Origin: Umbilicaria muhlenbergii
Lineage: Eukaryota; Ascomycota; Lecanoromycetes; Umbilicariales; Umbilicariaceae
Direction of reading: 5' to 3'
Length of the DNA: 64,000 nucleotides
Assembly (NCBI GenBank): GCA_000611775.1
Contig: KK106981.1
Span: 2,103,507-2,167,506, forward strand
Below the pieces are notes generated by a model that had not been told where the DNA came from, did not search any database, and saw only the letters and a list, made by a program, of their open reading frames with translations. Made by a program: the position numbers and the translations under genes. Of the stretch, positions 31,401 to 64,000 are shown one piece after another. Each line of letters starts with the position of its first letter. Position 1 is the first letter of the stretch.

Positions 31401-32244
31401 GAAAACAGGAAAGAATAAAAAGAAGACTGAGGATACATTATTCTCTCCTCTTCAGTCTCAACAGACTGTTACTAAAAGAAAGCAGAACAGCCTGATCTCA
31501 TTGTAAAGATTTAACACAAGTTATTCAGCATGCAGCCTGTAAGTCAGAGGAGAGCTACAACAAGAAAATGTCATACCTGCCTCTTTTTCACTTTCAGGAG
31601 CTGCATTGAAAGTGTTTAATGCTCTGAAGAAGACCTTCATGAGTGCTTCATTGCTACACTACTTCAATGAAAACAAACTCATGAGGGTTGAAACAGACGC
31701 CTCTGAATTCACAATTAATGAAATCTTGATGCAACACTTTGAGGTTGACAGTCAATTGCACTGATTATCAGTTACTTACTACAGCAAGAAGCTGCTAGAT
31801 ACTGAGACCTGATATGATATAAATGAGCAAGAACTCCTTGTCATCATGAAAGTCATGCATCATTAAAAACACTACTGTCAGGGTGCTAGACATCAAATTG
31901 TCATACTGACTGATCATGCAAACCTTGTTTGATTCATGACTACCTCAAACCTCACATGAAGGCAGCTCAAGTGAGCTGAAAAGCTCACTGAGTACAACTT
32001 TAAGGTCACATATCAAGAGGGCAAGAAGAACTCTGTTGACAGTTTGTCAAGATGACCTGATTATGAACTGCTGAAGGCTGTCAGTACCTCAACTGTCACT
32101 GAAATAGTGTGACAGTCCTTCCATTTAGGAAGCAAGAATTATAAGTCAGTGCAGGAGAAATTATACATGCTTGCTGCAATGATGCTGCAGTCAAGACGCT
32201 CAGTATGACAGAGGTTATAACAAGAGAACATCATACCTGTCACA

Positions 32245-32523
32245 ATGAATACTATCAGTATGATGAACACTGAAGATGATGATCTCATTAGAACATCAGT
32301 GATGCAGAACTTATCTGCTCAAGAAGAAGCAAGCTGTGATGAATATGTTAATACAATGAATACTGAAGCTGACAGCATGACTGAAACATCAGCAGTTTAT
32401 GATCTACATGCTCAAGAAGCAAGCTGTGATGAATATATTAATACAATGAATATTGAAGCTGATGATATGATTGAAACATCAGCAGTCCGTGACCTACATG
32501 CTCAAGAAGCAAGTCATGACTGA
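32245..32523 (+). repeat. 30-residue repeat array between RNase H and integrase (copy B)
   Basis: A 92-codon open stretch holds two clear 90-bp units (EASCDEY...DLHAQ) after a more divergent first unit. The units keep frame. Copy A has the same repeat in a different arrangement at 8345-8840. The acidic, low-complexity composition suggests a linker rather than a folded domain. Confidence 0.75.
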
Positions 32524-40467: not shown

Positions 40468-42105
40468 CTACTCGATATGCAGATCCCACCCGCCATCATG
40501 TGCCAGATCACGCATCCCCTCCCCATCCATCAAGCCATGGACATACGCTTCGCCCACGATTGTGAAATGTCTATCATTTGGGTCGTCGCCAAGCGGTCTC
40601 AGCACAAACGGGACGTTGGTTCCATAGATCAGGTAAACAACATCGCCCTGTTTCACGCCGCGCGCCGTGATGCCCATTCGCTGGTCTTCAGTGACGAAGA
40701 ACAGTCTCTGCCAGATAGAATTATGCAAAGCGGAGAAGAATGGCGGAACAAGCTTTAACGAGTCCAGTATTTCGCTGTTTGTGGGGCGGTTTTCAACATA
40801 TGCACCTAACCCGTGAAACTTTTGCCACGCATCAAAGGACTTCTTCATTCCCGTCTGTGGCAACCGCTGAAGGCCATTGCGATTGGCAACCAGAGTTTGC
40901 CAGTAGGCATCTTCTCGGTGCTCACGAGTATGGTGATATCGTTGCGGCAGGGCCTCCGCCATCCGTTGCCAAGATAAGTATTGCCGCCCCCGTGCGGCCA
41001 TCTGTGCCGCTATACTCGTCTGCGCACATGATTCGGTATGCAGATCGACTCCGACTTCAATGATACGGTCAACTTGGAAGCCTTGGATGGTCAAAACCTT
41101 GTTGTCATTTGAGACCTCGGGGAACAGAGGCGTGAACATGCGTAAGGTGGCGTTGAAGCTGTAGCCCACGTCTGTAATATCTTCCAATGGCACACGAGGG
41201 CGTCGATCGCTGTCGACTGTCCAATCAGGGACCCAAGAGGGCATCTCGCGCAGTCGTCTCAACTCATCGTTTTTGGCTTTGGGCCTAGCCCCATCGTGGA
41301 TTGGATATAATTCTTGTGTCGCTCGATAGCATAATGAGAGTAATTTCAACGGCAAGTCTCTCGGTTCATTTCTTGTAAGAAGAAATCTCGCAAAATCTGT
41401 GTAAACACAGGCAGCAGAAGTTTCCCCATATCGGATTTCTATATCGCCCTCTCGCAAATCTGTTGCCATACCTAGAAAGCCATATATTTTGTCTCTTGAA
41501 TCGGTCATGAGTTGGTTCCGGAACTCGTACACTAGATTTCTGATCGCCGCTCAACGCTTTTGATAGGTTGAAGGCGAAGTTTGAGGACGTATCATCTCCC
41601 ATGCACTCCGATCGAGATATATCCCCCTGTCACCAAAAGCTGTCAGTCCAGACAGCCGTGGAAGGAGAGGTCCCCAGTCATGGCGGAGCATAGCTCCTCG
41701 CAAAGCCATAAATTGGCCCCACGTCACGCTTTCATGTCCGCAGACGAAGCTTTTACTACTTTCAGGCAAAGAACCTTCTTGTATGATCCATCCTCGCCCA
41801 AATCAGGGCCGGTGGAACAAACTCATGAACGCTATCCACGGAGCTAGCTGCTCATCAGAAGCGTCCTGCGGAGGAGCTCTCACCTCATCACTATCATTCA
41901 AGTGAGCCCTGTCCCCTCTTTCTAGCGCCCTCAGTTTCAAAGCTGCATCAACTGACGTTATGAGAGCCATGGCAGAGTTGCTCTTTGCATCTGCTGGGCC
42001 AAGCCAGATGATCAAATGGGTGGTATCATGATAGACCTCACTCATGAGCGCAACCTGCCGTGCCTTCTCCGCTCCGTCGGACTGGTTGATGCAGATCCAT
42101 ACGAT
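40468..42105 (-). pseudogene. HET-domain (heterokaryon incompatibility) gene with two in-frame TGA codons
   Basis: HET proteins trigger incompatibility-linked cell death in filamentous ascomycetes. The single frame encodes ICINQSD, then SEVYHDTTHLIIWLGPAD, LFHRP, FGRGWIIQE, FVCGHESVTW, DKIYGFLGMA, and a C-terminal VPFVLRP...GEAYVHGLMDGE block. All are typical HET-family landmarks in order, over about 545 codons ending at TAG. The part before ICINQ must lie upstream: a good intron (GTATGT donor, TTTTCAG acceptor) spans 42106-42166, but I could not fix the first exon. Two TGA codons, at 41803-41805 (LFHRP-W-FGRGW) and 41551-41553 (YQKR-W-AAIRN), stand where tryptophan is expected; the frame is otherwise intact. 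Mild RIP-like damage is the likeliest cause. The gene may have died recently. Confidence 0.85.
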
Positions 42106-42166
42106 CTGAAAAGGGACCATCAGGTTAATTTAATGGCAGAACCCTGGGATCCACGTGACCACATAC
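42106..42166 (-). other. Predicted spliceosomal intron of the HET gene
   Basis: Read on the minus strand it starts GTATGTGG, has a TTAACCTGA-like branch site and ends TTTTCAG, for a length of 61 nt. Splicing joins an upstream exon to ATCGTATGGATCTGC (IVWIC). Confidence 0.6.
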
Positions 42167-43294: not shown

Positions 43295-46200
43295 CATGAT
43301 GAAATGACAATCCTCTGAGGAGTTTGCCCTCTGGAGGCTAGTCCAGAACTACTACAATGAACACTACTGCTTCAGTGGCTATGAAAGTGAAATTGACTCA
43401 TTCATCCCAACAGGTTCCCTTCTTAATGATTGTTGCTCAATCATAATGGCGGTCCTTGGCGATAGGATTCATGAGGCAAATGTGATCCTCGCCAGGCGCT
43501 CAGGAGACGAAGGTGTTCACCCTTGCCTCCTTTGGTGTGGTCTTCATACAAACATCGCCCTGGTGAGATATATTGTGGAGCAAGCGGAAGAGCCTTGTAT
43601 ATCATTAATCACATTGTTGAACTCTGAATGTTACTACAATCATCGTGGGGAAAACTCTCTACATATAGTCATAGACAATGGCCAAACTGAAACCGTCCAT
43701 TTCTTGCTCAAAGAATGGACGTTGAGGCCGGTAAGGATGCTCATACAGCACAGCAGCATTCTTCCGCAATCCCCTCTTCAGAATCACGCTGTTTCACAAA
43801 TTGAGTTATTATTCCTCATGCTAATTTACACTCTTCCAGTTGGCAAATTTGAACCAGAACCAGAGCTCATTGTACACTTCAAAGCTTGATCTTGATACTG
43901 CGCTACAGTTCGATGGCTCAAAATACTTTGAAAGTATCAGAATTTCGCATCTAAGAGCCCTCAATTCAAAGTCAGATATGTTTCCTGATCAGTGTAGCTG
44001 GTATTTTCTCAAAAGAATGCAGCAGCGCTGGGTGCGAACCAAACTACTTAGTGAGTGGACGTCAGAAGGTAGGCTAGACTGAACATGAGATCAGGTTATG
44101 TACCAAGTGTACGCTGACAGTCTAATCTCAGATATTTTGCATGCCATGTACGAGGATGAGGAATTCTACAGTGTTTGTCTTCGACATGAGGAAATTCTTA
44201 ATCTAAATCCGCTATGGGAAGTATACGGACACGAGCCCAAGTTGTTCCATTTCATGGCGGACTGAGCAGCGTCTGTGGACGCTCACTTCTTTTTTAATGA
44301 AGCCTTCCTTGAGGCCCAAGCATTAAATCAGAGTGCCAACTACTCAGATATGCTCAATCGTTGGTCACGCTCCTTCAACTCAAAGCTAGTACACACGTCA
44401 TTATTCCTGAAGAGGCTGCAGCGAGACTGGAATTTGATGCAGCAAAACTGGCTGTATTCAAAAAAGAGTGGCAGACACCTGTTTTCATCAGGCTTCACTC
44501 ATATCTGTAAGCGCCTAGGCCCTGTTGTGATAGTGAAAGAAGCTGCTGCTGTCAAAGAGGTCTTGTTGCATCTCACTCAACCACATGAACTTACGACTAG
44601 ACCTGAAGTCCCTATTATCAACAAAGATGTGGCTCCCGAAGAAGAGCCTTCTGGGCCAGGTTCAAGGGTTTATAGAAAACCAACCCTGACTTGTCACTAT
44701 TTGCTTGCCTCCGCTGGATCTGGTAAGACGCATCATCTGATGAGTGAACTTTTGAAGAGATTTGGGTTCTACCTCACTTCCGGAGCTATTATAGCCACTT
44801 CAGCTCACTCAAATGGAGAAGAACTCTATCAGCCTTGAGTGATTGAGTCATCGCAAGACACGGCATTGCTGTATCAGTCAACTCAGGCTTATTGGTTAAG
44901 AAGAACAGGGAGTATCGAGGTCAGTAGCTTTCGGTGGAAATGTGAATATTTGGTCAGATGCTGAGTGGAACTGCTTCATTGAGTCGCAGAGTTAGCTCAA
45001 TTGAAAAGACAGGGTTTTGATTTCACTCTGCAGATGTGACTTCAATATCAGCTTTCCTGTTGATCGGGACAAGATTCCTTCGCAAGGCTCTTCAGGTTCT
45101 CAATGATCGCGGGCTCAGTCTTTATGAAAGTGATAGAAAGCCTAAACAAGATTGAGCCGAAAAGCCTTTTCGGACAGACCCAACTACTGTGGTGTTTTGA
45201 TGAGGTTCAATGTGATTTGGTGGCGCTGACTCTGTCGCCTCCGAACCGCCACGGCTCTACAACAATTTTGAAAGGTTTGCTGGAGGGTCTGAAGAGCTCA
45301 CTGAGGACTGATTTCACCTTCTCTGAGCTCGACGGAATCGTCCTTCTGTCTGGGACTGCGCTCAATATCGACAAAGTTAGAGCCGCGGTGCATAGCACAG
45401 CCTTGAATCGTTGGTCCTACAAATCTGCAGAGATATTCAATCCGCCATTTTCTTTGCTGACCGGTCAGAAGGATTTCGAGGCTATCTTTGTTGATCGCGT
45501 AAAGGAACTTCTTACCATACTACAAAGCTTGAGCTCTGGAGAGAACTTTATCCAAAATTGTGGCAAGAAAACATTTCTACCTGCCAATGAGCAGAACGTC
45601 ACCAATCCGCGTTTATTCAAAGACTACGAGAGCTACTGCGGCAGCTTTAAAGGTGACCGGCGAGAGGCAACTGAAGCACTAGCAGAGCTAATGGTGACCT
45701 TCAAGTCACATATAGCCCAGCGTAGTGTTAGATTTCGTGGACGCTACCGGTGGTCAGTATACTACACTGAGAAATTACTTGAACAATGCGTCAAGAATGG
45801 GACCCTCACTATTCAAGCTATCAACATGGTTGTTGATGATGTCAAACGTACCCTCAAGGCTCCTCTCAAGAGGCGACTAAAATGTCTGTCAACAATGCCG
45901 GAGAAGAGCTCGATGATGAAAGACGTAATCAACATGACACTTGACGCGGATCTCCTTGAGCGCTCTCGTATACTTGCTTCTACAAGCAGCCCCGTTCTCA
46001 TAGAGCAAGCCCTGGGCTACGTTGAGTTAGCGGTGAGTGGAGGCGTTGAGGCTGTCAAAGTCAGCTTTGCTGAAAGACTGGTAGTAAACGCGGTTATGGA
46101 ATATTTGAAAGAAAACGGAGGAGATGAGAAATTTATCAATGACTACCTGCACGCAACACAGTTTCATGAAGACGCATTTGATGATGCATCAGAGTTTGGC

Positions 46201-47430
46201 CTCGCTGCTTCAATCACCTGACTAAGCAACACAGCACTACCGCAACGAGAGCAGTTCTTGGCTGCTTTCAATAATGCATACAAGATCTCAGCAAGCGGTT
46301 GTGCCTTGGATGCTACCCTCAACTTGCAAAACTTCATGTTAGAAACCGGTGACTATCTGTCAAGAGACTATTTACCCGCGGATGGCGGACCCTTACGTTT
46401 AACAACGTGGCTTGGGAAAGTTAGGGAGGAAGCGCCTCGCCCTACTTTCCTTTTCCCAGAGCAAGCTGCCGGCCCGGACCTCATGTTTGTGTACAGAGAG
46501 AAAGACAAGGAAAATCCTAAATGAATGGTATTCGTGATTCAGGTATTTACCACACTTTACCTACATATACGCGTTCAACAGGTATGCTAACTTCTACTGT
46601 CATCTAGCTCAAGACAGGGCACGAAAACGCAAACTCTGACTCAATCTTAAATACCATGGATCCTGATCGATGGTTCACTTCAAAGCCCGCAGATCAGCAG
46701 ATCTTCCGACGGGAGCTGAAAGCATGCAGATATACTGAAACAATCAAGTTTGTAAGTGTACTTATTATGGCTTCATCCGCAACAAATCATCTCACGGAGC
46801 ATGCTACGGCAATTCGTTACATGGAGGAGCGTAGAACCATTTTGCAAGAGTGAAAAAAGGAGTTCAAAGAGGCAACTGGAAGCTTCCGGGAGGCATATAA
46901 TCATTATCAAGCCCAGCCACCGACAGCAGAGACGGAAGCCGCGTTTCAGGAGGCAAAAGCTACCTTAGAAGACGTGCAGAATAGATTTCCGCTTGAGCAG
47001 AAAGAGAAAGTGAATGTGGCACAATCACCTTGAGCAACCAAACCTACCTGGAAAGACCAGTTCACCAAGCTTTCAGAGGACTTCAAGAACAAGCGGACCA
47101 AGTACATGAAGATTCATACCAACATCATGAAGTCTGTTCAAGACTCTCTTGACCAAGCTGAAAAGGCACTGAGCGATCTGGAAACGGCTCTGCTAAAGGA
47201 TCAGAATATGAGAGCAGCCCTAAAGTCTGCAGGTAAAGCTTCTGGCTTCAAGTTGCCTGCAGCAGGGCCGCCGGAGGTGAGTGGTTCAACAGATTACTTT
47301 TTCCGGATACTAGGAGATGATTCGGTGGAGGTGATCTTTGGTCGTGTGTTCGCGAGACTTATTTGAGGCATAAAGAGCAAAAGGCCGTACATTCCTGTCT
47401 CAAGAGTTGATGATGCAGACAGCAGTGATG
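43295..47430 (+). pseudogene. Decayed ankyrin / P-loop NTPase / nuclease-like gene (Crinkler-type architecture)
   Basis: An N-terminal ankyrin-like region lies about 43440-43730 (NSLHIVIDNGQTETVHFLL). A P-loop (ASAGSGKTHHL) follows near 44700-44735, then a Walker-B-like CFDEVQ near 45195, and LLSGTALNI near 45345, in the style of NTPases that pair with a nuclease domain. A GPDLMFVY segment near 46475 leading to VFVIQ resembles the restriction-endonuclease-like domain found C-terminal to such NTPases in Crinkler-type effectors. A coiled-coil-like tail runs about 46860-47370. Candidate introns (43731-43839 and 46543-46607, the latter with GCTAAC branch and TAG end) look normal. Composition is host-like. 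It is a fossil with several breaks. The family assignment is inferred from motif order. Confidence 0.6.
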
Positions 47431-48072
47431 GATGACCTTAGACACTGGTGAGGCAGAGGTGGTGCATGAAGGAATCGAGTGCTGGTATATGGTAAGGTAC
47501 ATCAATTATGCGGTTGTACAAGCACGGCAAGGTATGGGCAGATTCAGATACATGTAATGTAATTTGCTATAAGCCAACATGATATAAGCCTTCCTTTAAC
47601 CGACCCATCAAAAACTATGATATAGAAATTGTCAAAGCATATCACAGCACGTATAATCAGAATATGAATGTGTGAAGGAGGTGAGTCTCGAAACCAGATT
47701 CCTCTAAAAAGTATAATTGTGTTTATTCATGCAATCGAGTCCCTTAATCTTCTGCCAGGTAAAACGCGCTGTATTGCTGATCTTTTTACTTGAGCGCTGA
47801 CAAACTAAAGCAGGTATAAATAGCAGCGTAGGGCCATCAGTGGGAGTAGAAGCGCCAAAGATTGCACATGTTGAGAGTATGAAGAAGCCGAAACTCAGCG
47901 CATGTAGGCTCATTCATAAGCTCTTTCAGTAATTATTGAAGCGCAGGCTGAGGAATAGCTGTTTAATTGAGACGTGTTATTTTGGAAGCATGATCTGTAT
48001 GATAAATGATTCCTAGTCAGAAGTCTGGGCACAGTGTTTTCTGTTGAATATGCAGCTTTCGGGACTCGGCGA
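47431..48072. other. Island sequence before the 48-kb Gypsy; possible small secreted-protein frame
   Basis: The minus strand at 47704-47913 gives 69 codons with a hydrophobic start (SLHALSFGFFILSTCAIFGA), which looks like a signal peptide, then a basic tail. Nothing else supports a gene. The rest holds no recognised feature. Confidence 0.25.
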
Positions 48073-48257
48073 TGAAGAAGGGCGATTACGGATGGGTTCA
48101 ATTCAGTCAATTACTTGAATAGGGACCATTAGCAAAGAAGTGCTTCATTCAACTTGCTAACTGGTGGTTAGGAAAGCTCGAAGCAAAGCTCAAGAAAACT
48201 TCAAGAAAACTCCTGTTTTGACACTAATGTGCCAAGGCGCTGACTAACCCCTTGACA
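48073..48257 (-). repeat. 3' LTR of the 48-57 kb Gypsy
   Basis: It runs from TGAAGAAGGGCG to CTTGACA. It still contains GG and CG and is 98% identical to 56670-56854. Confidence 0.93.
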
Positions 48258-48450
48258 GGCTCCCCCTCCCTGAAAAGATCACCACCCTCAGCGGTGCTCA
48301 CATTTGCCAATTGGACCAATCAAACTACCCTTTTCATGTGGCACTATCTTTGCTAGCTTTCACCACAACCACAACTGTCTGATCCAGTACTTGGTTCAGA
48401 ACAATCATGTACTCATTAACTGCCTTCAGCTGCTCAGCTTCTGACAAGCT

Positions 48451-49569
48451 TCATGCTGCCTCTGCTGCACGTCTGGTCATGGTTAGCTTGGTCACCAGCG
48501 GGGCAATCTGAGTATAGGTTGCAACAACATAGTTGATGACAGCGGCCCCTGTAATCTTTTGGCGTTTGAAGATCTGAGCTGGTTCATAAGCCTCTTCTTC
48601 AGTCTCATGATGTAAGTGCTTCTTGAACTCATTCAACTGCTCTCTTCACTGCTTTGAGGAAATCATATGATGAAAGTCATGATATCCTCATCCTGATGTT
48701 CAGCCTTTTTTGCTCATTTTCTTAAAGATGAGTGCTTCCTCCCCTTGTTCATCTCTGAGTGCATTAACTCAATTCATGCAGTACTCTATATCCTCACGTC
48801 TGATTGTAGATTCACAGGTCTGAAGATAATTCAGATCAGTTGTCTTGTGAATCTTCACACTGTTAATGTTGTAATCAATGAGGTGATGCATGATTAACTC
48901 ATTCTTGTTAAAGGACCTGAGAACAACATGCTTAAGTTCTGAGTTTAATCTCATGATCCTCAAGATCACTCTCTTTTTCAAGTTACCCTTGAAAAATATA
49001 ATCTTCAAGTTCATTAATGCTGAGGTCTTGAGTTCCTCTGAGTTGAATGAAGCAGCATGATGAGAGTTGATCAATTTAAGCACTGCTTTAGTGATGTTCC
49101 TCACAAGCTTATCAGTGTTCTTTGCAGTCTTGATCACTGCTTCCTTTGCTGCTTTTGCTTCATCTGAAACATCAGGCCCGGTTCCTTTCTTGATATGATA
49201 AGTGTTCAAGTCAGGGGACAATGAGTCATTCATCACATACTCAAGAATCTCCCTAATTTAGTCAGAGAAGTGAGTGAAGTACTCATGATGTTCATCCTCA
49301 CGTGTCAGGATATTAAAGCAGGATGTTAAGTATTTGATGTGCTTAATGTGAATCACCTTCTCCTGCTCAGTGAGATTTCTGACTGAAGCAGAGTTCATGA
49401 GGGTGTCTTTATGACATTGAATCAATTCTGTTAAGTCAGTCTTATCAGTGGCGTTCATAACAGTGAAGCAGTTGATGAACTTTGCTCTGCTGACTGAAAG
49501 TTTATTCATTGAAGTGTTGCTCACAGAAGCACCTGAGGCGCGGTTCATCAAGATGAAGCTCAACATCAT
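48451..49569 (-). CDS. Post-pol ORF region of the 48-57 kb Gypsy
   Basis: Downstream of integrase in the minus-strand sense, a single frame stays mostly open over about 370 codons, in three long open pieces (49569-49258, 49236-48769, 48636-48451). Composition is Lys/Glu/Asn-rich and helical. I see no transmembrane segment or signal peptide, so nothing suggests an envelope protein. I recognise no domain; it could be a C-terminal polyprotein extension or an accessory ORF. It is part of a fossil element. Confidence 0.4.
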
Positions 49570-52500
49570 AAATCAATTGAGTTAATCTGATGAAAGCATA
49601 TGACTCATAAGTTGATGATGATTATTTCTGAATTTAAGCAACAACTTCTTTTATCTGGTTGAATCAGAGCATCTATGTTAGACGTTTCTTTAATGATGTG
49701 AAGTGAGATGAGGTGAGGTTTGAAGGCAGGTTTTGAAGAAGAGTTTGAAGTGAGATTTTCACAAGCTCAGAGACTGATCTTTGAGTGAGTTTAAGATGAA
49801 ATCATTGTCAGAAGTGACCTAGGGCTTGATGACTTAAGACTTTAATGATTAAAGGGTGTTGTGAGCTTATTTGTAAGTCATGATGACTGATTATGATGAA
49901 GAAATGATGATGAAATGATGATTGTAGAAGTCAGATTTAAATTATCATCACCTCATCATTTGAATCACCCTAAGTGAGGTAAAGCTGAGAGAACTTCATC
50001 TTCAGACATTATATGAGAGAACTTCATCTTTAGATGTCATATGAGAGAACTTCATCATCAGATGTCATATCAGATCTGATTAAGTAAGATTAAACTCCTC
50101 TGCTGTGATTTCTGAATGTAAAAAGTAATGATGTGATAGTTCTATTAATGCAATGAGCTCATATTAGCATGAATGCCAGGAGCTCAGTCAGGAGCTCAGT
50201 TTAATGATAAGTAAGTATAAGTAATCATGAGCAGCAATCATGAGCATGAGCAATCATTATATTAAGGGCATTCATGGTAGCATCACCCCCTCATTATCAT
50301 GAAATACTGAGCTCACTCAGTATGTTGTCATTGACAGTATCACTGCCCTTTGACTCAGTACTCCTGCATACTTCATTTCAGTTTGTTCCGTTTGAACAGT
50401 AGAGGTGATGTCATAGAATGAATGTGACAAGGTTGTCATTGCTGTTTCATTCATGAGCTTTGAATCATCTTGATTATCATCATTTAATGACTCATATGTT
50501 TGAATCTCTTCTTTCTTTTCAGCTTGAAGTCAGATTATGTACTTCTTCATGTTCTGCATATGATATCTCTTGAGCTTCTCATCACTGTAAAGTATCTTTA
50601 TTCAGTCATTGAGATTCTCTTTTGTTGTTTAAATCAGTATCTTCAGTTCTTTTCATCTTGCTTTCAATTTCCTTCTTCATTGATTATTTAACTGAGTATT
50701 CCTCATTAACATCAGATCCTCAGCTTTGAGTAATTCCTGAGTTGTAGTTCACATTGCTTCATTCTTTCCTTGATGCATCATTAATGAGTTGATAGCACAT
50801 CCTCAGTTTTCATCCTTAATAGCCACATAGAGGTCATGAGCTTTGTTCACTTTCACTTTCATTTTATCAGTTCATGTTGATAGCTTAAACAGATATGTGT
50901 TGAAATGAATTAATCTCAGCTTATATTTTAAAAGAAGTTCAGCTGAACTGTACCTGTGAACTTGAATCAATCAGGTGTTGATGCTCAGTGTGATTTCAGA
51001 TATATACTGAGATCAGGTGTTTGATGTTGCTGCATTTATGCAATTCACTCATAATTGAGATAGCATCAATTGAACATTTCATTCAATCAGTTTGATTGAT
51101 GATGAATGAGTTACTGATGCTGTCATATGAGTTACTTCATGAGCTTTGAATATCACCTTGATATCTTTCTCAGTAAAGTGAGATTCATTGTTGCTATAGA
51201 TCACCTTTGCTCATTTAAATATGAGAATAATGTGATTACAAAGAAGGTCAGCAACTTCTGCTTATGTGCAGAACTTGTATGACATCAATCAAACAAATCA
51301 AGTATAATAATTGATCATCAGAAGGATGTATTTATGCTCAGTAGTACTGCAGATCAACTTGATTAATTTAAGAAAATTAATACTTATCATTAACATGAGT
51401 TCAAACTGCTGCAGATGCCTTAATTCCTCTTTCTCAATTTTATGCTCCTTGAGTTGACAAGTTGAACAGGAGCAGCATCATGCCCTGACATCATAAACTC
51501 AAGTCAGTCAGTATGCTTCATTAATTAACCTGTTCAAGGTGATCAAATCACTGTAGTGCTCACAGGTGTCATGCATGTATGATAAAATTTTAAGAATTTC
51601 CTCTTCAATCAGGCACAGTGACTTAATCTCATTTACTTTTGTATAAAGCAGGTGATCTGATCTGTCTGTGAAACTGTATCTTGAAATCTTCCTCATAAGT
51701 GCATGCAGTTCAGTTCAAGGAATTTCTCTGAGACCTTTCCTTTTGAACCTCAGGTATTGAATTATTCACTTCATTAATTTTGACTCATTGAACTTTTGTC
51801 ATTCCTTTTTCACATATTCATCAATCAACAGTCTGGTATTGATGTGTGTGGTTCAATCATCAGAGAGTATGAGCATGATCATGTATGAAAAGTCTTTCAG
51901 GGTGAATTCATTCATTAATTCAACTGATAATCAGCTCAATTCATCTGTAATGCTTATCATTGAATTGCTGACCTGCCGGTGGTGAATGATGTAGTCATAC
52001 TCATTCAATTAATCTTGTCATGCTGTTATGCATTCATGACCGTCTGTTCCTTGAGTGAGTATAGACTTCAACGCTTGATGATCAGTATAAATCATTACAG
52101 GAGATTTGTTACTTATAATTAATCATTGAACTTCTGTTAAGCACCTCACTACTGTCAAACATTCTCTTTTCATGTTTGAATAGTGAGTTTCAGTGTCATT
52201 CAGTTGATATGACAGGAACATTATGATCTTGACTTTTACTCAATTTTTTAATGTTAAATCCTCATTCATTGAGGTGTTCTGCAATTGAAACAATACCCCC
52301 CTGATACAGTTTTTGCTTGCATCAATTGTGAGGTGATACTGAACCTTGAGGTTCACTTCAGTCATGACATTGAATAATATGCTCTGCTTGATGTGATTAA
52401 AGGATTTCTGCTGTTCCTCCCCTCATATGAAATCATTTGAGTTTATTCATTTCACTCATTTTTTTCATATGATGATATGGTGCAATCTTTTCAATTAAGT

Positions 52501-55500
52501 GAGTTTTGTGAGATCTTCATCACAGTTCTTAATATCAGGTTTCACTTTCTCTTTAACTGAGTCTGCAGTTACCTGCTTCAGGTATGCTTGCTTCATTATG
52601 AGTACATGCTTCACTCATCCTGATATGAAATTTCAGAGAAAGAGGGTTAAATAAAAAAACTCATTCAGTTGCACCTGATTCTGTGATATTGATTAATTTA
52701 AAATTTTCTCATGATGCTTTATAGAGGGTCTGATATTTTCAGGCTCACTGATGAAGCTCAACAGATTCAAGTTATCAGTAAATATGATGATCTTGAGAGG
52801 ATTGAGGTATATCAGTCTGAATGCTACTCTCAGAAAGTAGCTGAATTTCAGAAATTAATAAAGGATTTTAAAGTCAGTGACTGATGCTGCATGATCATTC
52901 ATAAATGAGATCATTACTACATTCTCATGATTTCTGATAATAGTTGACATTCTGACCTCCTTGATGCATTCATTTTAAGATATTGACCCAAAAACCAAGT
53001 CTGTAAACTGAGAGTAGGTGTGCAGAGCACCTTTGAGGCCTTGACTCATTCATCAGTATGCATATTAATCATGTGAGGTGATGATGCCGGCCTTATACTC
53101 ATCTTCAGGTTTAATTGAAACGGCTTAATAACTGTTTGAAGCGTCAGTGCTGAAATAGCAGGAAGATTTCAGCTTGATCAGAGTTTTCAACACTTCTTTC
53201 AACTGATGCATCAGATATTCTGACTTGATGATGCATTTGTTGACTGAGATGAAGTTATGTATTACTTTAAGCTGATCAGATTCTTTCTTCTTTGAGGGGA
53301 ATTTAATTCTTGCTGCTCAATTACTACTCATTCAAGCAATAATGCCTGCCTCCTTTAATTCTGAGAAGATTTAATTTGTGAATTCCCTCTCTTGTGAGGT
53401 ATATTGAGGTAGTTTCTCTCTGCATGACTTCACATCAGGGGTCAAGTTGATTGAATGCTTTATTAAATCAGTTGATCAGATTTCCTGCATGATGATGACA
53501 AAGCAGTTCTTTCAGGTATACAGCAATCACTTAACTTTAAACCTCTGCTTTATTATTTTCACTTTTGATCCTATGAAGATGCCTGATTCATTGAATTAAT
53601 TCATGATTGTTTCCTCACTTTCCTCACTTAGCTGTCTTGATTGTGATCATCTTGTTATAAGAAATCATTTAATGATCTGCAATGAGAATGAGGTGTGATA
53701 CTCATCTTGAGATTCTTACTTTGCTGATTCATTTCTCTCATGTTCCTTTAAGGTTTCATTCTTCAGTGTCAGAGCTATCATTCTTGAGGAATCCTCATCA
53801 TCATAAATTTTATCTTTTTATTCAGGTGATTCATCTTCTTCCTTGATTTCTTCTCCTCAGATTAACTCTGTGATTATTAATCTGAGGGCTTGACACTGAT
53901 TTGCTTTGCTTGCCTCTTTCATATCAGGGTCAGATTTGCACTGATGAGGGCTTGAATCTCTGCTCAGTGCTGATCTTTTTCTGATTCATTAAGGATTGAT
54001 TCAATGAGGTCATTCTTGTTGTCATCATCATCTTCCTCCCTTATCTCAACAATGAGGACTTGCTTAAGGACCTTGATTGAGATTATTTAATAATCAATCA
54101 TTACTGTCTTTTCATTGATACCCTGAATAAACACTTTTTTCTCACTGAAGTTGATGTTCATCCTCACTTGTCTTTGTCATTTAAGGCTTAATAACAAGTC
54201 ATATGTGATAACTGAGAGAATGTAGACCTGAATCATCATCTTCACCCCTCTCACATTGACGTCTAGTCAAGTATAGTTGTGAAGAGTGCACTTGTTGTCA
54301 TCAGTCAAGTTGATATTGAGGTGCTCATCTGAATGAATCAACTGCTTGAGTAGTTGATTCAACATGCGTTCACTTACAATGTTCACAATGAAATCAGTAT
54401 CAATCAAGGTTTTTGAGGCTTTTATTAATTTGAGTCAGATGATACAAAACATAAAGGATGCTTCTTCATCATCTGACAAGATCATGTTAATGACTGTTGA
54501 AAGTGATGAGTCATTGTCATGCCTCATTGCTGCTTCAGATATGATTGATTCCTTGATTGCTCTCTTCACCTGATATCTTGATGTAGATGACTGAAGGTTA
54601 AAGGTGAATTTTCTTCAGAGTTGTTGTGATTCATTAAGCAATTAACTCAATGAGAGAATTACTTTCAGACTCATAACCTGATGAATGTTGAATTGTTGAT
54701 CACCTTTTATGACTCAGATAAGATTCAGCACCTTGATTTGCCTTGAGTGAATTAATTTTTTTACATGATTATTTTCAACCTTCACCTGAGGCGCTCTCAT
54801 AACAGAAAACTCAGAAGAGTATTCATACTTCTCTTCAACTGTCATGTTTTGTGACTGTGCTGAATCACTCAATGATGACAGGTTTTCATTATTCAAGCGT
54901 CTGCTTAAGTGTTGATTGAGGATTATCAGAGGTTGAGCGTGAGCACTGACAGGCTGTTGAGACTGTTGATATTCATTGTTGATTCAGGCATTTCATTGAT
55001 TCATAGCTTTTTCTTGTGTGATCTGCTGTGTCACATCCTTTTTTTAAATTCTACCTTCATGAGTAACTGCTGTCAGAGCTGAGTTCAGTGCTGATGTCAA
55101 CATTAATGACATCAGCAGGAATGCTGCAATTGAGTTATACTTAAATTCTTGATTCTCTTGATCATAGTATGAGTAATCATCAGATGATGAATCACTTCAT
55201 TGATCTTGCTGATATTAAGAATTATAATCATCTGAGAGAGCTGCTCTTGTCATGATTATTGAAAAAGCTGTGAAGGAGACGTTTTAACTTAAAACTCTGA
55301 ATTATTGATTTAAATAAAAGCAAGATGATGAGTAGTGATCTTTCTCCTCACATGTGAAACATTTTATATTTAAGTTAATCTTTTTAACTTCTTCTCAGTT
55401 TCCTTCATGCTCATCTTTATAGTTCTCTTGTCCTCTGAATGATAAAGCATTACCTTGATTGAATGATCTGATCAGGATGTTCATGATGATCTCACTCTGT

Positions 55501-56651
55501 GTAACTAAAGCTCACATTCCTTGTAGAATGAAAGAAAGTATTTGCTGATTTCAGTTCTCTTCAATAATTTTAAATAATTTAATTGAGGCTTCTGAGAGTC
55601 CTGTTGATTCAGTGTACTCTGCATTGAATGAGTTATTCTGATCAATAACTTAATAAGCTGTTATGATATTCTTCTTAACTTTCATGAAGGTATAATCTTG
55701 ATCTTTGACGCACTTGAAGATTATTCAGCTTCATTCATTCAGATCTCACATTCCCTGCACTACATTGAAACTTATGATAAAGAGATAAGCAGACAGTCTC
55801 CTGAAAAGGTCCTCTGCTCATTTAAGGTATGCTGTTATGATCTCATCATCTGATTAACTCAATGAGGAGACTCACTGTCAGAGCATGAAAGTCTTCATCT
55901 TCTTGTCATCCTTCAGTTTGTAGTCTTCTTGAAACATTTGCTTCAATACAGTTCAGTCTCCCTTTGTGGCCTTAGATAAGTTGAAGTATCATTTAACTGC
56001 ATCACTCTTGAGGTGCTGATGAAAGAGTACTCATGAGGTGATCTCTTTATGATTTGATTCATTTGAGACTTTTGAGTCAGTGTAATCATTGTTGTAGAAG
56101 AATTTCACATTCTTCAGATATTCCTCTGAGTCTTTCTTGTCATCTCAAAGGCTGTGAAATGACTTAATTATGAAATGACTCATCCTTGCTGTATGCATTG
56201 AATCTGACGGGGAGGTCTGTGGATTGAAGCTCTTCAGGTGTAAAGGTAGATTCAATGAGAGTTGATATTAATGAGAGGTCTGCTCAGATTGTTCTATAGA
56301 TGATAATCATCCCTTGATCATGAATTAGAATAGGGTTCTCTCTATTTCAATATCTGAGAGGTGAGGAGAATATTCAGTGACATAACTCACTGACGTGTCT
56401 TGAAGAAAAGAAAAGGAGCTAATGATGCTTCAGGTATTAAATATATTGACTCAATGAGGACTGTCACAGTTCATCAGGTCTCTCTTAAACTCAGTTTTTT
56501 GATGAATGATGCCTTGTTCCTTTAAGGTCTTCACATTGTTGATGAGTGCCTTGTTCCTTTAAGGTCTTCACACTGTCTCAGTCCTTCAAGACCTTCTCAG
56601 TCCTTCAGGGAAAATTGAATGTATTAGCCTATTTGATGTTGGCGTTGACAG

Positions 56652-56668: not shown

Positions 56669-56669
56669 A

Positions 56670-56854
56670 TGAAGAAGGGCGATTACGGATGAGTTCAATT
56701 CAGTCAATTACTTGAATAGGGACCATTAGCAAAGAAGTGCTTCATTCAACTTGCTAACTGATGGTTAGGAAAGCTCGAAGCAAAGCTCAAGAAAACTTCA
56801 AGAAAACTCCTGTTTTGGCACTAATGTGCCAAGGCGCTGACTAACCCCTCGACA
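56670..56854 (-). repeat. 5' LTR of the 48-57 kb Gypsy
   Basis: It pairs with 48073-48257 and is followed by GCGAT, matching the left flank. Confidence 0.93.
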
Positions 56855-57000
56855 GCGATCGCGTATATGGTCGCCTATCGGCGTGGGATTTCAGGGTCCA
56901 GGCAGTCACGTCAGGGCCCTTTAATTAGAGATTTCCCACTTGTTTTAGGGGTTAGTCGATCCGTTGGATTATATTCAACATTTTCAATAGATCAGACCGG
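56855..57000. other. Host-like flank between the Gypsy and the hAT element
   Basis: Normal GC and CG content, including GCGATCGCG. Together with the sequence left of 48073 it is the original insertion target. No gene was recognised. Confidence 0.5.
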
Positions 57001-59630
57001 TCTACATACCGGTCTGGTCTGGTCTACATAGACCAGACCAGACCAGCTAATCAGGTGGTCTAGACCAGATCAGACTGAGGGGTTGGTCTGGTCTAGACCA
57101 GCGTGCAGACAGCAGGGGTCTACACGTGAGGAATGCTGCCGTGTTTTGTACGCGTTGTCCATAGTAAAAATAATATTTTCTCTGCTCCATTGCCATCATG
57201 TTCGTGAATTTTATGCTTCAACGCTGAGATCCAGTTGCGACGTTTATCATGTCTGATATAGATAGTGATTCAGTTCACCCTGAAAGCAGCATATCTATAC
57301 CAACCTCTCTTCCTTCAAACGTCGAGTCTCATACCGTTGACACGCGCCTCTTGGAGGCCTCACTGGCCAGTACAGATCCTGCAGACCGAGTTCACTATGA
57401 CAAACACGACTATATCAAGGCGGCTTCCATCTTTCGGAAAGGCGCCCAAGCGAAGACCTCCGTGATCTGGAAGTACGACAATGGATCTGAATGGATCCAG
57501 ATTCAGAACAAGAAGGCATACTGGCGGTGCAAGCATTGCCACAGGAGAAAGAGGACTATTTTCTTGCAGTCATCATCAACTGATCATGCTTTCAGGCATC
57601 TGTCATCAGTGCATCAAATCAGTTCAAATGGACTTCCGAATGAAAGATTCAGTAATGTTATGCAGCAATTGAATGCTGTAAGGTCTACTGCTACAGGACT
57701 TACAACACAAGTTGATAAAGATTGATTTAAGACTGCTTTGATTGAGTGGATCGTATGTCTGCATCTTGCATTCAACATGGTTATGAATGTCTATTTCTGA
57801 ACGTTCTTGGAGGTTTGTTCCGTGACGGCTCTGAGTCTTTTGCCAGATAGTCAGAACACTATAAGAGCTTGAATGATGAACGCTTTCAATACTAAGAAAC
57901 AGCAACTCATGAACAAGATGCATCAAGCAAAAGGTTTGGTTCATATATCATTTGACCTTTGAACGTCACCCAACTCCCTTGCATTTGTAGGGGTTGTTGG
58001 ACACTGGTTTAATGGACAAGCGGTTAAGGCAACACTTCTTGAACTCCGCCGTATCAGAGGCAGTCATTCAGGTGAGAATATCACGGAGCAGGTGATTGCT
58101 GTGATTCATGATTATGAACTTGAGTCTCAACTTGGGTATTTTGTCTTGGACAATGCTGATACAAATGACATCTGCGTGGCTACAGTTTTAGAGACCATTT
58201 GACCAGATTTAAAGCCAAAAGAACGACGTCTTCGCTGTCTTGAACATATCATCAATCTTGCGGCGACAGCGCTGCTTTTTGGCACTGATGCTGAAGCATT
58301 TGAGCTTGAAGTTCTTGGTGCTGAAGCTCTAGAAGAAGAGATAAAAGAGCTGAATCTTTGAAGAAGAAAGGGACCAGTTGGAAAACTTCACAACATCATG
58401 AAGTTCATTCTGAGAACCCCTCAAAGACGAGAGGAGTTTCTCAGTCTCAAACTCAACCTTGACACCAATCTTGAGCATCTACAGGTAGTTAGCGATCAAG
58501 CTACGCGGTGAAACTCCGCCTATCATATGATTCAGCGTGCTATTAAGCTCAGGGATAAGATAGATCTTTTTGTTTGTCAACATCAGCAACCTGCAAAGCG
58601 AAAACGGGACGGAACAACGGAAGAAGTCTCCCTTCAACAAGACACTTTAAGTACCAATGATTGAGGTGTCCTGACAGACCTTTTAGAACTACTAGAACCA
58701 TTTCATACGCTTACTGTTCACATGCAAGGATACGCCACTAAAGCTGAGCGTGGCTCTTTATTTGAAGTCATGCCTTCTATCATGATTCTTTTAGATCACC
58801 TTGAACAGAAACGGGATCACTACGCCACACTAAATGACAGTGAGTTCTACGGACAGAATTTTACTTGGAAGCATCTATCTACAGCTACCAACAACGCGTG
58901 GGCCAAACTCTGAAAGTATTATATGCTATGCGATGATTCTTCAGCTTACGCCGCTTCCTTAGTAATGAATCCACGCTGCAAGTGAAAAGCGTTGAAATCA
59001 AAATGGTTTAGTGATCCAGAATGGATAGGACCTGCAAAGAAAGAGGTGGATATGCTATGGCGGAAGTGCTATAAGAATCTGGTAAATGCTGAACCACCTC
59101 AAGATTCAAGCGCAAAAGCCACTGAACCGGATATATTCAATAAATTTCTAGCTGTGAATATATCTTCGCATTTTAATATCGACCAGTATCAGCAATACTG
59201 CGATTGATCAACTGAGCAGGTCTCTGATATAGTGGACTGATGGCGTGTACAGGAATCACAGTCACCGCAATTGATGCAGATGACCTTGAATTTACTCTCA
59301 GTTCCTGTCATGTCTGCAGAGTGTGAGTGAGTCTTTAGCAGTGCTAAACAGCTGCTTTCTGATTGCAGAAATCACCTGAAAGCAGACATTATTGAGGCCA
59401 ATGAATGCTTAAGAGCTTGGATAATGCAAGGTTATTGAACATGTTAGCTGAAATTCAATTTGCGTGCCACAGCTTTGCTAATTGTGCTACAGATCTATGA
59501 AGCTATACCAAGGTCTTGGCAGACGGTCTGCAGACTGTCTAGATCAGATCAGACTGAAGATCTCAGTGATCTAGACCAGATCAGACCTGATCATCAGTCT
59601 GGTCTGGTCTGGTCTGATGAAAACACAGAC
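57000..59630 (+). mobile_element. hAT-family DNA transposon with GGTCTGGTCT subterminal repeats
   Basis: Clusters of GGTCTGGTCT and AGACCAGACC, partly palindromic (TAGACCAGACCAGACCAG near 57030), lie at about 57000-57105 and in inverse order at 59535-59620, flanking a transposase frame. The exact ends and the 8-bp target duplication are not certain; TTTTCA occurs at both candidate ends in inverse orientation. The element looks almost whole apart from point changes. Confidence 0.8.
57249..59438 (+). pseudogene. hAT transposase, 730 codons, broken only by TGA
   Basis: It starts MSDIDSDSV. A BED-type zinc finger follows (YWRCKHCHRR ... HAFRHLSSVH, residues about 96-122). Next come the RNase H-like core with FDL-TSPNSLAFVGVVGHW (about residue 237) and FVLDNADTND, the CLEHIINLAA helix, and the C-terminal hATC dimerisation block (PVMSAECE, VFSSAKQLLSDCRNHLK, ANECLRAWI). 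The frame has no indels. Thirteen premature stops occur, every one TGA at a position where tryptophan is expected (first at 57723, last near 59328), while twelve TGG codons survive. The final TGA is at 59436-59438. Length and domain order are normal for hAT. Confidence 0.88.
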
Positions 59631-59639: not shown

Positions 59640-60016
59640 GCAATATGAAATGAATCATGAATCATAGAGGAAGTCAATAGCTACATGATTTTCAGAGGTG
59701 ATTACAGTATATTTATATGTAGCCTTATCAGTATCAGAAGTCTGCAGGAACTCAGTTTCACACAAATGCTGTTCAACTTCACAATTTTTGTTACTTTATC
59801 ATCACTTCCTCTTTAGTTGTTCATCACTTCTGAGCCACTGGGCCATTACTGAAAGCATTCATCACTGCAACATCATCTCATTCACTTCTATTACCATATA
59901 ACCTTGTTGTTCATAAATCATGGTTTCTGTATTTCTTCACTGTGTGAGTTGGCAGTAGTATTAAAGCTAACACATCACAGCTGCAGCTACAGTGATCTAC
60001 AATTGATCACAAAAGA
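59640..60016. other. Unassigned AT-rich gap
   Basis: A 67-codon plus frame at 59698-59901 shows no family features. Mutation-type composition resumes right after the hAT element. Confidence 0.35.
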
Positions 60017-61561
60017 ATGATAATCTGAACCTGTACTCTCTGCTCTGTCACAATGCAGATACAGAGCTAGGAGTCTCATCTTCATGAAAAGCTGCATGCA
60101 GCTCAAGTCATTCAAGCTCACAGTGCTGATGAAGATGTGAACTCTGAATGAGTCTGTTTAAATGATCAAGTTGAAACTATCAAACTGTCTGCTAAAACTG
60201 CAAAATAATTATTTCTGATAACTACTGCTTCTTCACAGAATTGAACTGATAGATCCTTGTCATCAGATAACAAGAAGTCATTATGAACTGCTACATACAA
60301 TACTGAAAGAGTTCAAGTGATCACTCAGCAATGTAAAGTCAAGAATAAAAATGAACATACTACTATCTCAGCAGATCACTGAGCAAGCCTCATTTAAGAT
60401 TCTCTCACAACTTCTCAAATCAATACATGCACTATACCAAACACAGCTGAACTTTCAGAATACATAACAATATTGAGCATTTTTAATACTGTTCTGTGAA
60501 AATGCACACTGTGCAACCTGTATATGTTTTCAGCTTCAGGCTCAGCTCATCTCATCTGCAAAGCACATATAGAGAGGCTGTTATGTTCAGTCATGATATC
60601 AGACTCTGTACTTTCACAAGAGCAGAATAAAAGACGTTTACAAGAGCTGAAGTGTGAGTCACAGATGTTGCAGACTTCAAATGCAATGATCTGTTCCTCA
60701 GTATTAATTTTTCTGATTGTACAGCAGAGCAATGACACTGAGTTTCAGAGATCAGTGTACAACACTGAAACTTTAAAAATGTTGAACTCATCATCTGTCA
60801 CTTTCTCTGACATAATATTAAATTTAAAATCTACAGTACACTTCTGAACCTGTCAGCACTGCAGCACTGAAGTTGATATTCATCTGAATCACATGCATCA
60901 CTGCTGTGCATTCAAGCCTAGTGTGTCTTCTTTTGTTGACAACTCACTCAATTATTTTTTCTACTGCTTCTCTAAGTTTCTCTATGATGCCAGTATACCG
61001 CCGGCCACATTATACCAAAAGCTTTGAGCACAATTAACAAGATGGCATGACTGAGATGAAAACCAACCAGAAACATGAAAGGAATATTAAGAAGAAGTTC
61101 ATGCACAATATCAGACAGCACTAATGCACAAGTTTAACCTCTGATTTGGCACTGAGGACAATTTAAAGTCATGACATGCTCTCTGCTGAGCTGTCAGAAT
61201 CACACCCCTCTCACTCACATGTGAGAAATGTTAATCAGTAAGTTCATTCAACTACATCATTCATATATATATGCAAAGGTCTAGAAGACCTGAGACACCG
61301 TGTAAATGAACTGACATGATATGAGAATACATGCAGGTTATTCATGATCAACATGTCAACATTGTTGATCTGATTCAATGAGCTAGGCAGGGAAAGACAG
61401 AAGCAGTGCAGATTTTCAGTACAATGAAGAAGTTGAGTGATTATAGTTATGATCAGGACAAGATATATAACAGGAATCAGCTGAGTTCAGAAGTGATGCT
61501 TAAACATCTTTTGCATATGTTAAAAAAAGCTCACAAAAAAGCCTTAGATAAGGATTTTTAA
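60017..61561 (+). pseudogene. Decayed multi-C2H2 zinc-finger gene, fungal type
   Basis: One plus-strand frame of about 515 codons carries zinc-finger-like modules. TCTLC...ESHLHEKLH lies near the start (60029-60105), KCTLC...SAHLICKAH near 60498-60570, and TCQHC...HLNHMHHC near 60848-60905. A C-terminal region follows: YFFYCFSKFLYDASIP, QLTRWHD, HKFNL-FGTEDNLKS, HALC-AVRITP and HVNIVDLIQ (to about 61400). This order resembles a conserved but unnamed fungal zinc-finger protein whose C-terminal part begins FF--F--F-Y-P. There is no frameshift. About 21 in-frame stops occur: 16 TGA, 4 TAA, 1 TAG. Function is unknown; nucleic-acid binding is inferred from the fingers. The start is the ATG nearest before the first finger. 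Confidence 0.6.
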
Positions 61562-64000
61562 AGAGATATGACTGATGTACAAGAATGAGAAAAGGAGCTT
61601 TTTGTGCTTGCATTTTTTTTAAGCTGAGTTCTTGAGATTGATAGTCAGGTTCTTGTACATCTTACTAAAGCATCTTCTTGAAGCTGTTGTCTAGAAGCAT
61701 ATTCTGTGAATAATATCTTGCAGTCACTCTGAACTCAATACTTCATCTAGTTCATGCAATGCACAGGATTCATTCAGTGACCTTTAAACTGCACTTACTA
61801 CTTTATATTTCATACCTCTACTGAGGTTGTCAACCTTTGAAGGTGTTGATCAGCAATCTCAACAGGAAAGTTGACAGGAACTAACTTGAAGATTGAGCAG
61901 ATGATTTTTATACTGTGATTATAATAATATGAGTAGTTTCTGTGAATAAGTCAGTACTAGAAATAGAGAGGGTTCAACAGCCACAAAGGGTTCAATAGTC
62001 ACAAAGAGCTCAACAGTCACACTATGTGATAATGACTGAGTCTCATCAAGTGTACTCTGTGTCACATGCAAAGAGATCACCTGCTGAGCTCTAAATTAAT
62101 GCAGGCTTTTTAACCCCGCATCAGAAATGTTGAGATTATGTCATTCAACTCAACAAGAACATTGTTTAAAAGGTTCATTACTCTTAAGAGAAGTCAAGTA
62201 ATTAATTTTCTTGCACCCTCAAGAAGCTTCAGTAATTCAGCATCATGTTTACTGTCTTTTGCTGCTTGTCTATAAGTCTGTACTGCTCAAGGCAACTTGA
62301 TCATGAGGTTAAGTTTAAGACCTTTATGTGTTGAGCTGACCTTCAAACAACTTCTTCAGTTTCAGTTGACAGCTCACTCATCAGCAGTGCATCATACATG
62401 ATTCAACTTGTGAGGCAGATCAATTATGAACTGCAGAAGTCAATTAAATACTTTGTTTTAATGAGCAACAGCTCTGATTTTGCTGAGGTCACTGAGGACA
62501 ACCTTCTCAAATTGAATTTCAATAAACTGAACTTGTGTTTGATCATGAACAATCTCACAAGTTACAGATCCTGTACTAACTATTAAAGCCTGCAGGTGCA
62601 AAAAGCACAACAAATTTTTTAAAATCAACCTCTATCAAAAGAACCCTATCAGTGTGCATCATTAACAGGTCAACCTCATGTGACTGTTAAGAAATATTAA
62701 TTTAACATCTCAACAAAAGGGCTCTGAAGTGGAGTCAAGTAACAAAGTAAAGAAATTGACAGAACAAGAGAAGCAGGAACTTTTATCTTCTGATATATAA
62801 GATAAAACTTCATTTCTGAAGTTACACATTTCACTCTTACAAGCTCTTGAGGTACTTAATATTACAGACTTTAAGAAATCTTTCTGACTTGAATTAAAAA
62901 ATGAATAAAGCACCTGCAAATCAGTCAGACATTGTGACTCTGAAGAAAGTTCTTCAATTTCTACTCCTCAAAGTCAGAACAAGTCTTGATATGAGCTGCC
63001 TTTTAAGCCTGCTATCTTTTGATTGAGTTAACACAGAACTGAACCTTGATCTTGAGTTTAAAAGTCTTTGAAAGGCTGAATTAATCAGCTCAAATATTGT
63101 CTTATTTTTGTGCAATTATCTTATTGATACGTCTTCTGATGTGAAAGTCAATCTTAAAAAGATTGAAGATTTAGTAATCTCTGCAATGCGTCACATCAAA
63201 TTGCACAATAAACAGCAACTCACAGAGCAAGTCAGACTTCATGAAATTATTAACAGAGTACTTGAGTTTAGCTGTACATTAAATTGAGTGTCTGTGTATA
63301 AAGGCAGCATTGTGCATGTGTTTAAGTCTGGCCCTGGTGAACTTCTCAATTGCTGTCAGTGCAAAAATGACTGCCTTCAACAAAATTGAAGCAATTGACA
63401 TACTGAGAAGTCTCATCATACTCAAAGCAAGAAGGTACTAGTGACACTGAAACTGTCAATGTGTAGTATTATCACTGATTGATTGTAATAAGTCAGTAAG
63501 GAGTTCATGTCATGAATGAATCAAAGTGAATGTAACAACTATGATCTTGACTATGATGATCATGACTTTGATTATGATCATGAACTCATGAAAGACCTCA
63601 CAGCTTGCAATAAGAAGTGCAGATATTACAGAAACTGTGATTATTAAGATGATTAATGAACACTCTTCAATGCTTCTCAAAGGTTGATGAAGTTTAATGT
63701 ATTTACTGAGGCATTATTCTGATCAAACTGAATGTTGAGAAGCTTGAAAGATTAAGCTTTCTTTGATTGTCTTTTCTCTGTCATTTAGATGATGTAAGAA
63801 TCAGGTCTGATAAAGGAAATCTATGTGTGATAAAAGATTCTTTTCACTCATAAAGATCAGCTGCAATTGTGTTAACACAATATGTCTAGATATAATTTAA
63901 AGCATTACAGAGATGCTTGAAGATAATCTGTCTCTTTTTATTCTTAAAATTTCAGCCTCAGGTGTTGTTCTTCTCTTTTTCATGATTTTATCTTTTTTTC
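61562..64000. other. AT-rich decayed DNA to window end, unrecognised
   Basis: Plus-strand frames are broken chiefly by TGA, as in the neighbours. The longest open piece is 62398-62586. A short direct repeat of the CACAAAGGGTTCAATAGT type occurs about 61975-62025. An Asp/Tyr-rich stretch lies near 63540-63600 (CNNYDLDYDDHDFDYDHE). No domain, LTR or RNA gene was recognised. Confidence 0.35.

Follow-up and report, generated by a model that had tools for sequence, protein, structure and literature searches.

Repeats on all seven contigs of the genome studied here (34,788,950 bases, from a fungus that is probably lichen-forming) have undergone a real process of C-to-T mutation. The changes run in one direction at conserved codons, have a characteristic sequence context and are concentrated in transposons relative to the few gene loci compared, and the genome carries genes for RID-like and DIM-2-like enzymes. 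We consider it likely that the changes are the product of a RIP-like mutation of repeats that reads a three-base target on the 3′ side, with a methyltransferase of the RID/DIM-2 type as its proposed agent.

A hAT relic interrupted only by TGA

The window, a stretch of 64,000 nucleotides on contig 1 (bases 2103507-2167506), contains the relic of a hAT transposase on the forward strand at 57249-59438. Its single 729-codon frame, in which TGA is the sole interruption, matches the hAT dimerisation domain of Pfam (PF05699, 58.5 bits). A recount confirmed the initial annotation: the frame has 13 internal TGA codons and a further TGA at 59436, no TAA, no TAG and no frameshift. All 38 CAA/CAG codons are intact, with none converted to TAA or TAG, and the remaining five reading frames have 37-60 stops each, with TGA, TAA and TAG all present. 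The annotation had also counted 13 of about 25 Trp codons as TGA. The sum stands, with 13 TGA and 12 TGG, but the attribution of every TGA to Trp does not. In an alignment with as many as 60 proteins, made up of 59 from databases plus L012 (a stop-free hAT relative), Trp was the commonest residue at just seven of the 13 positions (57870, 57960, 58359, 58509, 58662, 58983 and 59238) and Arg at three (57723, 57798 and 59328; 16/47, 42/54 and 59/59 homologues, respectively), and three positions were ambiguous (58200, 58911 and 59205). Trp is at least 85% conserved at five of the seven; it is found in 51/56 homologues at 57870-57872 and in 60/60 at 57960-57962, 58359-58361, 58509-58511 and 58662-58664. 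The TGA codons at 57798-57800 and at the invariant Arg of 59328-59330 are read as CGA-to-TGA changes. Since homologues show Trp at some TGA positions and Arg at others, both TGG-to-TGA and CGA-to-TGA changes have occurred. Sixteen Trp-commonest positions of the relic carry TGG or TGA; seven are TGA and nine TGG, the latter being nine of its 12 TGG codons. At Trp positions conserved at 85% or more, five hAT elements together carry 34 TGG, 30 TGA, one TAG, two TAA and two other codons. The window relic accounts for 7 TGG, 5 TGA, one TAC and one TTT, L012 for 13 TGG, L013 for 12 TGG and 2 TGA, L014 for one TGG, 12 TGA and one TAG, and L015 for one TGG, 11 TGA and 2 TAA. L012 has a 785-codon open frame with 43% protein identity to the window relic, and its DNA is 46-49% G+C.

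Across the window, 68 stop-to-stop frames reach 150 codons or more when TGA is read through, compared with 10 under the standard code and 12 each when TAG or TAA is read instead. Eight TGA-read frames reach at least 300 codons, against one such frame in one of 20 first-order Markov simulations, which rejects chance as their source. The HET-domain gene at 40468-42120 (reverse strand), noted in the initial annotation for its excess of TGA, has two TGA codons as its sole interruptions, and a 916-codon frame at 43840-46590 (forward strand) has ten; both are open only when TGA is read. The 916-codon frame had no Pfam match, and by eye it contains a P-loop-like stretch. The many frames opened by reading TGA would suit an altered genetic code in which TGA means Trp and nothing is broken. 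This explanation is almost certainly wrong: it is refuted by the TGA at an Arg invariant in 59/59 homologues and by L012, in which 13/13 conserved Trp codons are TGG, and it would not account for AT-rich DNA that lacks CCA and CGA trinucleotides in counts over all positions of both strands.

This AT-rich, hypermutated DNA occupies 1-38000, together with 49501-56500 and 60001-64000. Counting every position on both strands, we found a CCA/TCA ratio of 0.02, a CGA/TGA ratio of 0.00 and CpG odds of 0.07. The depletion of CG described by the initial annotation thus holds for the AT-rich parts but not for the hAT relic, whose CpG odds of 0.63 are close to the 0.69 of stop-free L012. Next to the relic, CCA/TCA is 0.02 and 0.09 (saturated) versus 0.38 inside it. 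Because the flanks are saturated and the relic is not, the element was probably inserted late into already mutated DNA and then lightly hit, as judged from these ratios. In a genome search, the DNA of the window hAT was found in full only once, so the repeat trigger for this element is not visible; this counts against the RIP-like reading. Immediately to the left of the relic lie direct repeats, 97.9% identical and 8.6 kb apart (48072-48258 and 56669-56855), which probably represent short LTRs flanking a retrotransposon. This repeat forms six or more same-strand pairs, the window pair included, at spacings of about 8.5-19 kb on contigs 1-4. The window also holds an older Gypsy-type LTR element at 4276-10553 (forward strand), which has an integrase zinc-binding match, and a second copy at 28185-34291 (forward strand) that is 84-86% identical to it. 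Elsewhere, an exact 272-base tandem duplication at 17573-18116 is recent or untouched by the mutator, as its copies show zero differences.

The mutated trinucleotides in repeat families

To polarise changes in a hAT family, we used as reference the positions at which L013 agrees with L016/L017 (97-98% identical, lightly mutated), and pooled both strands of five mutated copies (L014, L015, L018, L019 and L020). C-to-T changes were found at CCA in 152/199 sites, CGA in 58/87, CGT in 45/100 and CTA in 37/118. The other contexts were lower: CGG 13/57, CGC 11/51, CCG 12/57, CCT 40/230, CCC 7/116, CAA 42/259, CAT 20/260, CAG 10/234, CAC 5/154, CTG 25/245, CTC 18/238 and CTT 17/317. By the +1 base, the counts were 127/295 for G (0.43), 211/602 for C (0.35), 97/918 for T (0.11) and 77/907 for A (0.08), which makes CpA the least mutated dinucleotide per site and bears out the view of the initial annotation that this process is distinct from Neurospora-type RIP. 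With S standing for C or G, CSA (210/286) differs from CpA at p of about 3e-101 (Fisher), and A at +2 increases mutation in every +1 class (p ≤ 6e-7 each); the copies are related, so that the sites behind both comparisons are not independent. This context is more precise than the CpC/CpG preference proposed initially. The A at +2 decides, and a plain CpC preference is rejected, because CCC, CCT and CCG fall far below CCA. Likewise, the proposed origin of TGA from CCA on the opposite strand agrees with CCA being the most mutated context, but part of the TGA codons come from Arg CGA.

The base 5′ of the mutated C had almost no effect, with frequencies between 0.16 and 0.21 across the four −1 classes. 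DNA cytosine deaminases of the APOBEC/AID type read the 5′ base. Such an enzyme could produce a C-to-T excess on both strands, as seen here, but it is a very improbable agent, since +1 and +2 decide the outcome; the flat −1 position rejects APOBEC-like 5′ reading. Sensitivity to +1 and +2, coupled with near indifference to the 5′ base, suits a C5-methyltransferase.

The young changes have the same context. Among the 97-98% identical reference copies (L013 and L016/L017), C/T differences, the youngest in the family, were found at CCA in 14/84 sites, CGA in 10/40, CGG in 6/26, CGT in 2/36, CTA in 2/43, CCT in 2/82 and all CpA in 1/321. Lightly mutated L019 and L020 show CCA and CGA changes together (10/23 and 5/10, and 14/25 and 7/12, respectively). 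These data bear on whether two processes are at work, a CpG mutator tied to DNMT5 or DIM-2 and a separate C-N-A mutator, an explanation that overlaps with our preferred one and that we regard as unlikely. As a separate CpG mutator would predict, CGT is high although its +2 base is not A, and the early changes include CGG; however, CGA (58/87) exceeds the remaining CGN (69/208), and the light copies were mutated at CCA and CGA jointly, so a single target reading +1 and +2 fits.

The changes also run mostly one way. L015 has 282 transitions (267 C-to-T/G-to-A and 15 reverse) versus nine transversions in 2577 aligned bases, and 61 of its 68 CCA sites are changed. The older L014 has 313 transitions (253 C-to-T/G-to-A and 60 T-to-C/A-to-G) and 56 transversions in 2424 bases, with 52/66 CCA sites changed; its transversions and reverse transitions indicate that older copies are less pure. 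These counts bear on passive decay, in which repeats methylated by DIM-2 and DNMT5 lose 5-methylcytosine through slow deamination and the preference of methylation sets the context. In favour of this explanation, the genome has DIM-2-like and DNMT5-like genes. In Zymoseptoria tritici, methylation that depends on Dim2 favours CGA and CGC within the CG class; within CHH it favours CA first and CC second (PMC8016269). Mutated sites also lacked consistent strand clustering (nine of ten tests gave p ≥ 0.11 and one p=0.022), a result that favours passive decay, counts against the RIP-like reading and gives no sign of discrete mutation episodes. Nevertheless, we find passive decay quite unlikely. Changes at CCA in L015 exceed transversions hundreds-fold, whereas its poor-target cytosines are almost unchanged (CAC 1/52 and CAG 1/79), and such a gap is larger than is known for 5-methylcytosine decay. 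Simple deamination, confined to CpG and independent of +2, is not what we observed either, with CCA the highest context and CGA above the other CGN. C-to-T change that runs mostly one way, is concentrated in transposons and, at CCA in L015, exceeds transversions hundreds-fold fits active RIP better than slow decay of 5-methylcytosine.

The order CCA > CTA > CAA was repeated in the hAT-2, Gypsy and RVT_1 groups. For hAT-2, 15 of 19 matches were aligned, giving 748 transition and 10 transversion columns with two states and 30 columns with more. At strict sites, those with invariant neighbours, the T-fraction was 0.80 for CCA (17 sites), 0.45 for CTA, 0.18 for CAA, 0.15 for CCT and 0.002 for CAG. 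For Gypsy, an 1801-base piece of the copy at 28185-34291 has at least 43 genomic matches, itself included, with 40 of 264 candidates scored; 15 copies (13 fetched and the two in the window) gave 551 transition and 38 transversion columns with two states and 57 with more, and strict-site T-fractions of 0.86 for CCA (8 sites), 0.37 for CTA, 0.26 for CCT, 0.20 for CAA and 0.01 for CAG. The 16 RVT_1 copies, picked from at least 150 matches among those with a 184-codon frame, gave 156 transition, seven transversion and two more-state columns, and T-fractions of 0.83 for CCA (6 sites), 0.35 for CTA, 0.25 for CCT and 0.20 for CAA. Raw polymorphic columns by +1 base were 300/597 for A, 118/154 for C, 33/35 for G and 296/531 for T in hAT-2, and 263/391, 86/104, 10/12 and 191/293, respectively, in Gypsy. 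These raw counts put CpA first, with 300 of 747 columns in hAT-2 and 263 of 550 in Gypsy, since both families are saturated and have almost run out of CpC and CpG sites; per site, the share of CpA is the lowest or level with that of CpT, and the preference is one per site. Few CpG sites are left in these families, and the evidence for CGA accordingly comes mainly from the first hAT family and from depletion.

The DDE_1 family was less uniform. Eight of its 14 pieces, aligned without a reference, showed no clear context order. Seven copies compared with L109 gave CCA 30/34, CTA 33/49, CGT 13/20, CCG 11/20, CCT 30/77 and CAA 50/151, a comparison that rests on 34 CCA and 42 CpG cells (CGA 0), uses a reference that may not be ancestral, and leaves out L083 (the same match as L082) and six pieces at 76-79% identity. 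In the 97.6% identical pair L113/L114, C/T differences at sites with equal neighbours were found at CCA in 5/17, CGA in 1/1 and CAA in 1/15, with all other contexts at 0. L111, 81-82% identical to this pair, has a weaker signal, and in L112 (75%) the signal is not clear; between L111 and L112 (75% identical) there was no clear CCA excess (2/16). The TGA excess is not confined to the window: stops across all 43 DDE_1 matches are TGA 127, TAA 49 and TAG 4, and for RVT_1 (150 of 877 candidates scored) they are TGA 238, TAA 37 and TAG 5 in the first 50 of the 150 matches listed. As CpA is not the dominant target per site either, the core inference of the initial annotation withstands the refutation that it set for itself.

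Gene loci, as far as they have been compared, are spared. At three methyltransferase gene loci, CCA/TCA is 1.14 and CGA/TGA is 1.00, and a pair of DNMT5-like gene copies (L043 and broken L044, 79% identical) with 121 transitions and 55 transversions showed no CSA bias (CCA 6/37, CGA 7/28); few loci enter this comparison. The edges of mutation are sharp on a single side only, and only in L015 and L019. CGA/TGA is 0.53 in the left flank, 0.01 in the core and 0.00 in the right flank of L015, and 0.05, 0.06 and 1.33, respectively, in L019; in L014 and L018 both flanks are mutated.

Methyltransferase genes and a possible agent

The genome has four places that match PF00145 (L041-L044), and both RID-like and DIM-2-like genes are present (L042 and L041, respectively). 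L041, which we take to be DIM-2-like, has as its best solved relative 9bap, there named just DNA (cytosine-5-)-methyltransferase, and has a DUF7893 match and a BAH match slightly below the cut-off. L042, presumably RID-like, shares 69% identity with a protein of Lasallia pustulata; with one from Umbilicaria vellea it shares 59% over 56% of the query. Its first exon (625 residues) matches PF00145 and has no BAH domain; RID/Masc1 is described as a methyltransferase without BAH (PMC7862722). L043 is close to Rad8 (7r76), and Rad8 is of the DNMT5 type according to the same source (PMC7862722). By this likeness L043 would be a DNMT5-type methyltransferase, in a comparison that covers the part outside SNF2. 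L044 is a broken partial relative of L043 on another contig.

L042 departs from more distant relatives at six positions of the catalytic part, in each case from at least 90% of them. Two of these positions adjoin the Q-x-R-x-R motif: Tyr instead of Trp (112/112) and Gln instead of Ala (104/110). Both are common to L042 and the Lasallia protein, and each occurs in four of the five next relatives. These two residues may be a cause of the target shift, a candidate role that rests on correlation.

In the mechanism that we propose, the mutations would be driven by a C5-cytosine methyltransferase that senses repeats, belongs to the RID (or DIM-2) type and, on the 3′ side, has come to read C-S-A instead of CpA. 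C-C-A and C-G-A would be its best targets, followed by C-G-T and C-T-A, with CpA the poorest, and methylation would be an intermediate of the C-to-T change. A hit at CCA on the opposite strand would turn TGG into TGA, and one at CGA on the coding strand would give TGA directly, so that targeting of both would yield the TGA-dominated stops in coding frames. We infer that the process depends on RID or DIM-2 and acts premeiotically, in the sexual phase.

Comparison with known RIP systems

The process resembles Neurospora crassa RIP in its mostly C-to-T changes in repeats, the AT-rich repeat DNA, the RID- and DIM-2-like genes and the sparing of the gene loci inspected. Transitions of the C-to-T/G-to-A kind are overwhelming in hAT-2, Gypsy, L015 and L014, and L042 would be a gene of the RID/Masc1 type. 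The usual, though not universal, CpA preference of RIP is absent here, CpA being the lowest of the four dinucleotides. The order in N. crassa is CpA>CpT>CpG>CpC, and in Trichoderma reesei CpA is about equal to CpG and CpC lowest, in the sections of PMC5496416 that treat them. Here the order is CpG>CpC>CpT>CpA, with A at +2. T. reesei RIP is similar in having abandoned strict CpA and in including CpG, but CpA is lowest here, and CpC, last in both of those orders (PMC5496416), is not. A survey of ten genomes reports, in the part concerned, CpA, CpT and CpG signatures only (PMC4352252), and CpA is again the main RIP target in rDNA (PMC5555474, relevant section).

CpG/TpCpG hypermutation in basidiomycetes (Microbotryum and Rhizoctonia solani AG8) also involves CpG, and TGA is named as the chief stop that CpG-biased mutation produces (PMC4014442). 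The passages of that source on context give a 5′ T or plain CpG and mention no A at +2, and in R. solani genes and repeats are mutated at similar levels (PMC4014442), in contrast to the few gene loci compared here. By Table 2 of the same source, CpC changes in R. solani AG8 lie closer together than those of the other three single CpN kinds, a spacing not normalised to CpC abundance (PMC4014442).

RIP has been reported in Gyalolechia flavorubescens and Cladonia, fellow Lecanoromycetes if the class to which we assign the window is right. Cladonia rangiformis has RID and DIM-2 homologues (PMC12542154, relevant section), and the words CpA, CpG and dinucleotide are absent from the main text of that paper. 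The main text of the Umbilicaria pustulata transposon paper contains none of the words RIP, repeat-induced and methylation (PMC8773270). We found no C-S-A or C-N-A target in the accessible portions of the open-licence PMC literature on lichens or RIP sequence context, nor in those of PMC13207899 and PMC6180176. The Lecanoromycete RIP of PMC7882544 was, according to its relevant sections, detected by CpA-based indices, which fail on the AT-rich window DNA. The canonical indices are negative there (TpA/ApT 0.62, substrate index 1.69), and with survey cut-offs of >1.15 and ≤0.75 (PMC7882544) this DNA would be called unaffected. RIPCAL was, by a statement in its own description, not designed to detect trinucleotide bias (PMC2621366).

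RIP surveys rely on CpA/TpA indices, and standard tests would miss mutation at CCA and CGA. This genome, with its RID- and DIM-2-like genes, is a strong counterexample to such indices. From this one genome, we give an even chance to the broader reading that RIP has been re-aimed in the Umbilicariaceae, with a methyltransferase that reads C-S-A, sparing CpA and destroying CCA and CGA, and that other fungi scored RIP-negative by CpA indices may carry cryptic RIP. If this is general, counts of RIP have been too low, and what sets RIP specificity could be tested directly by matching RID proteins to the targets that are mutated.
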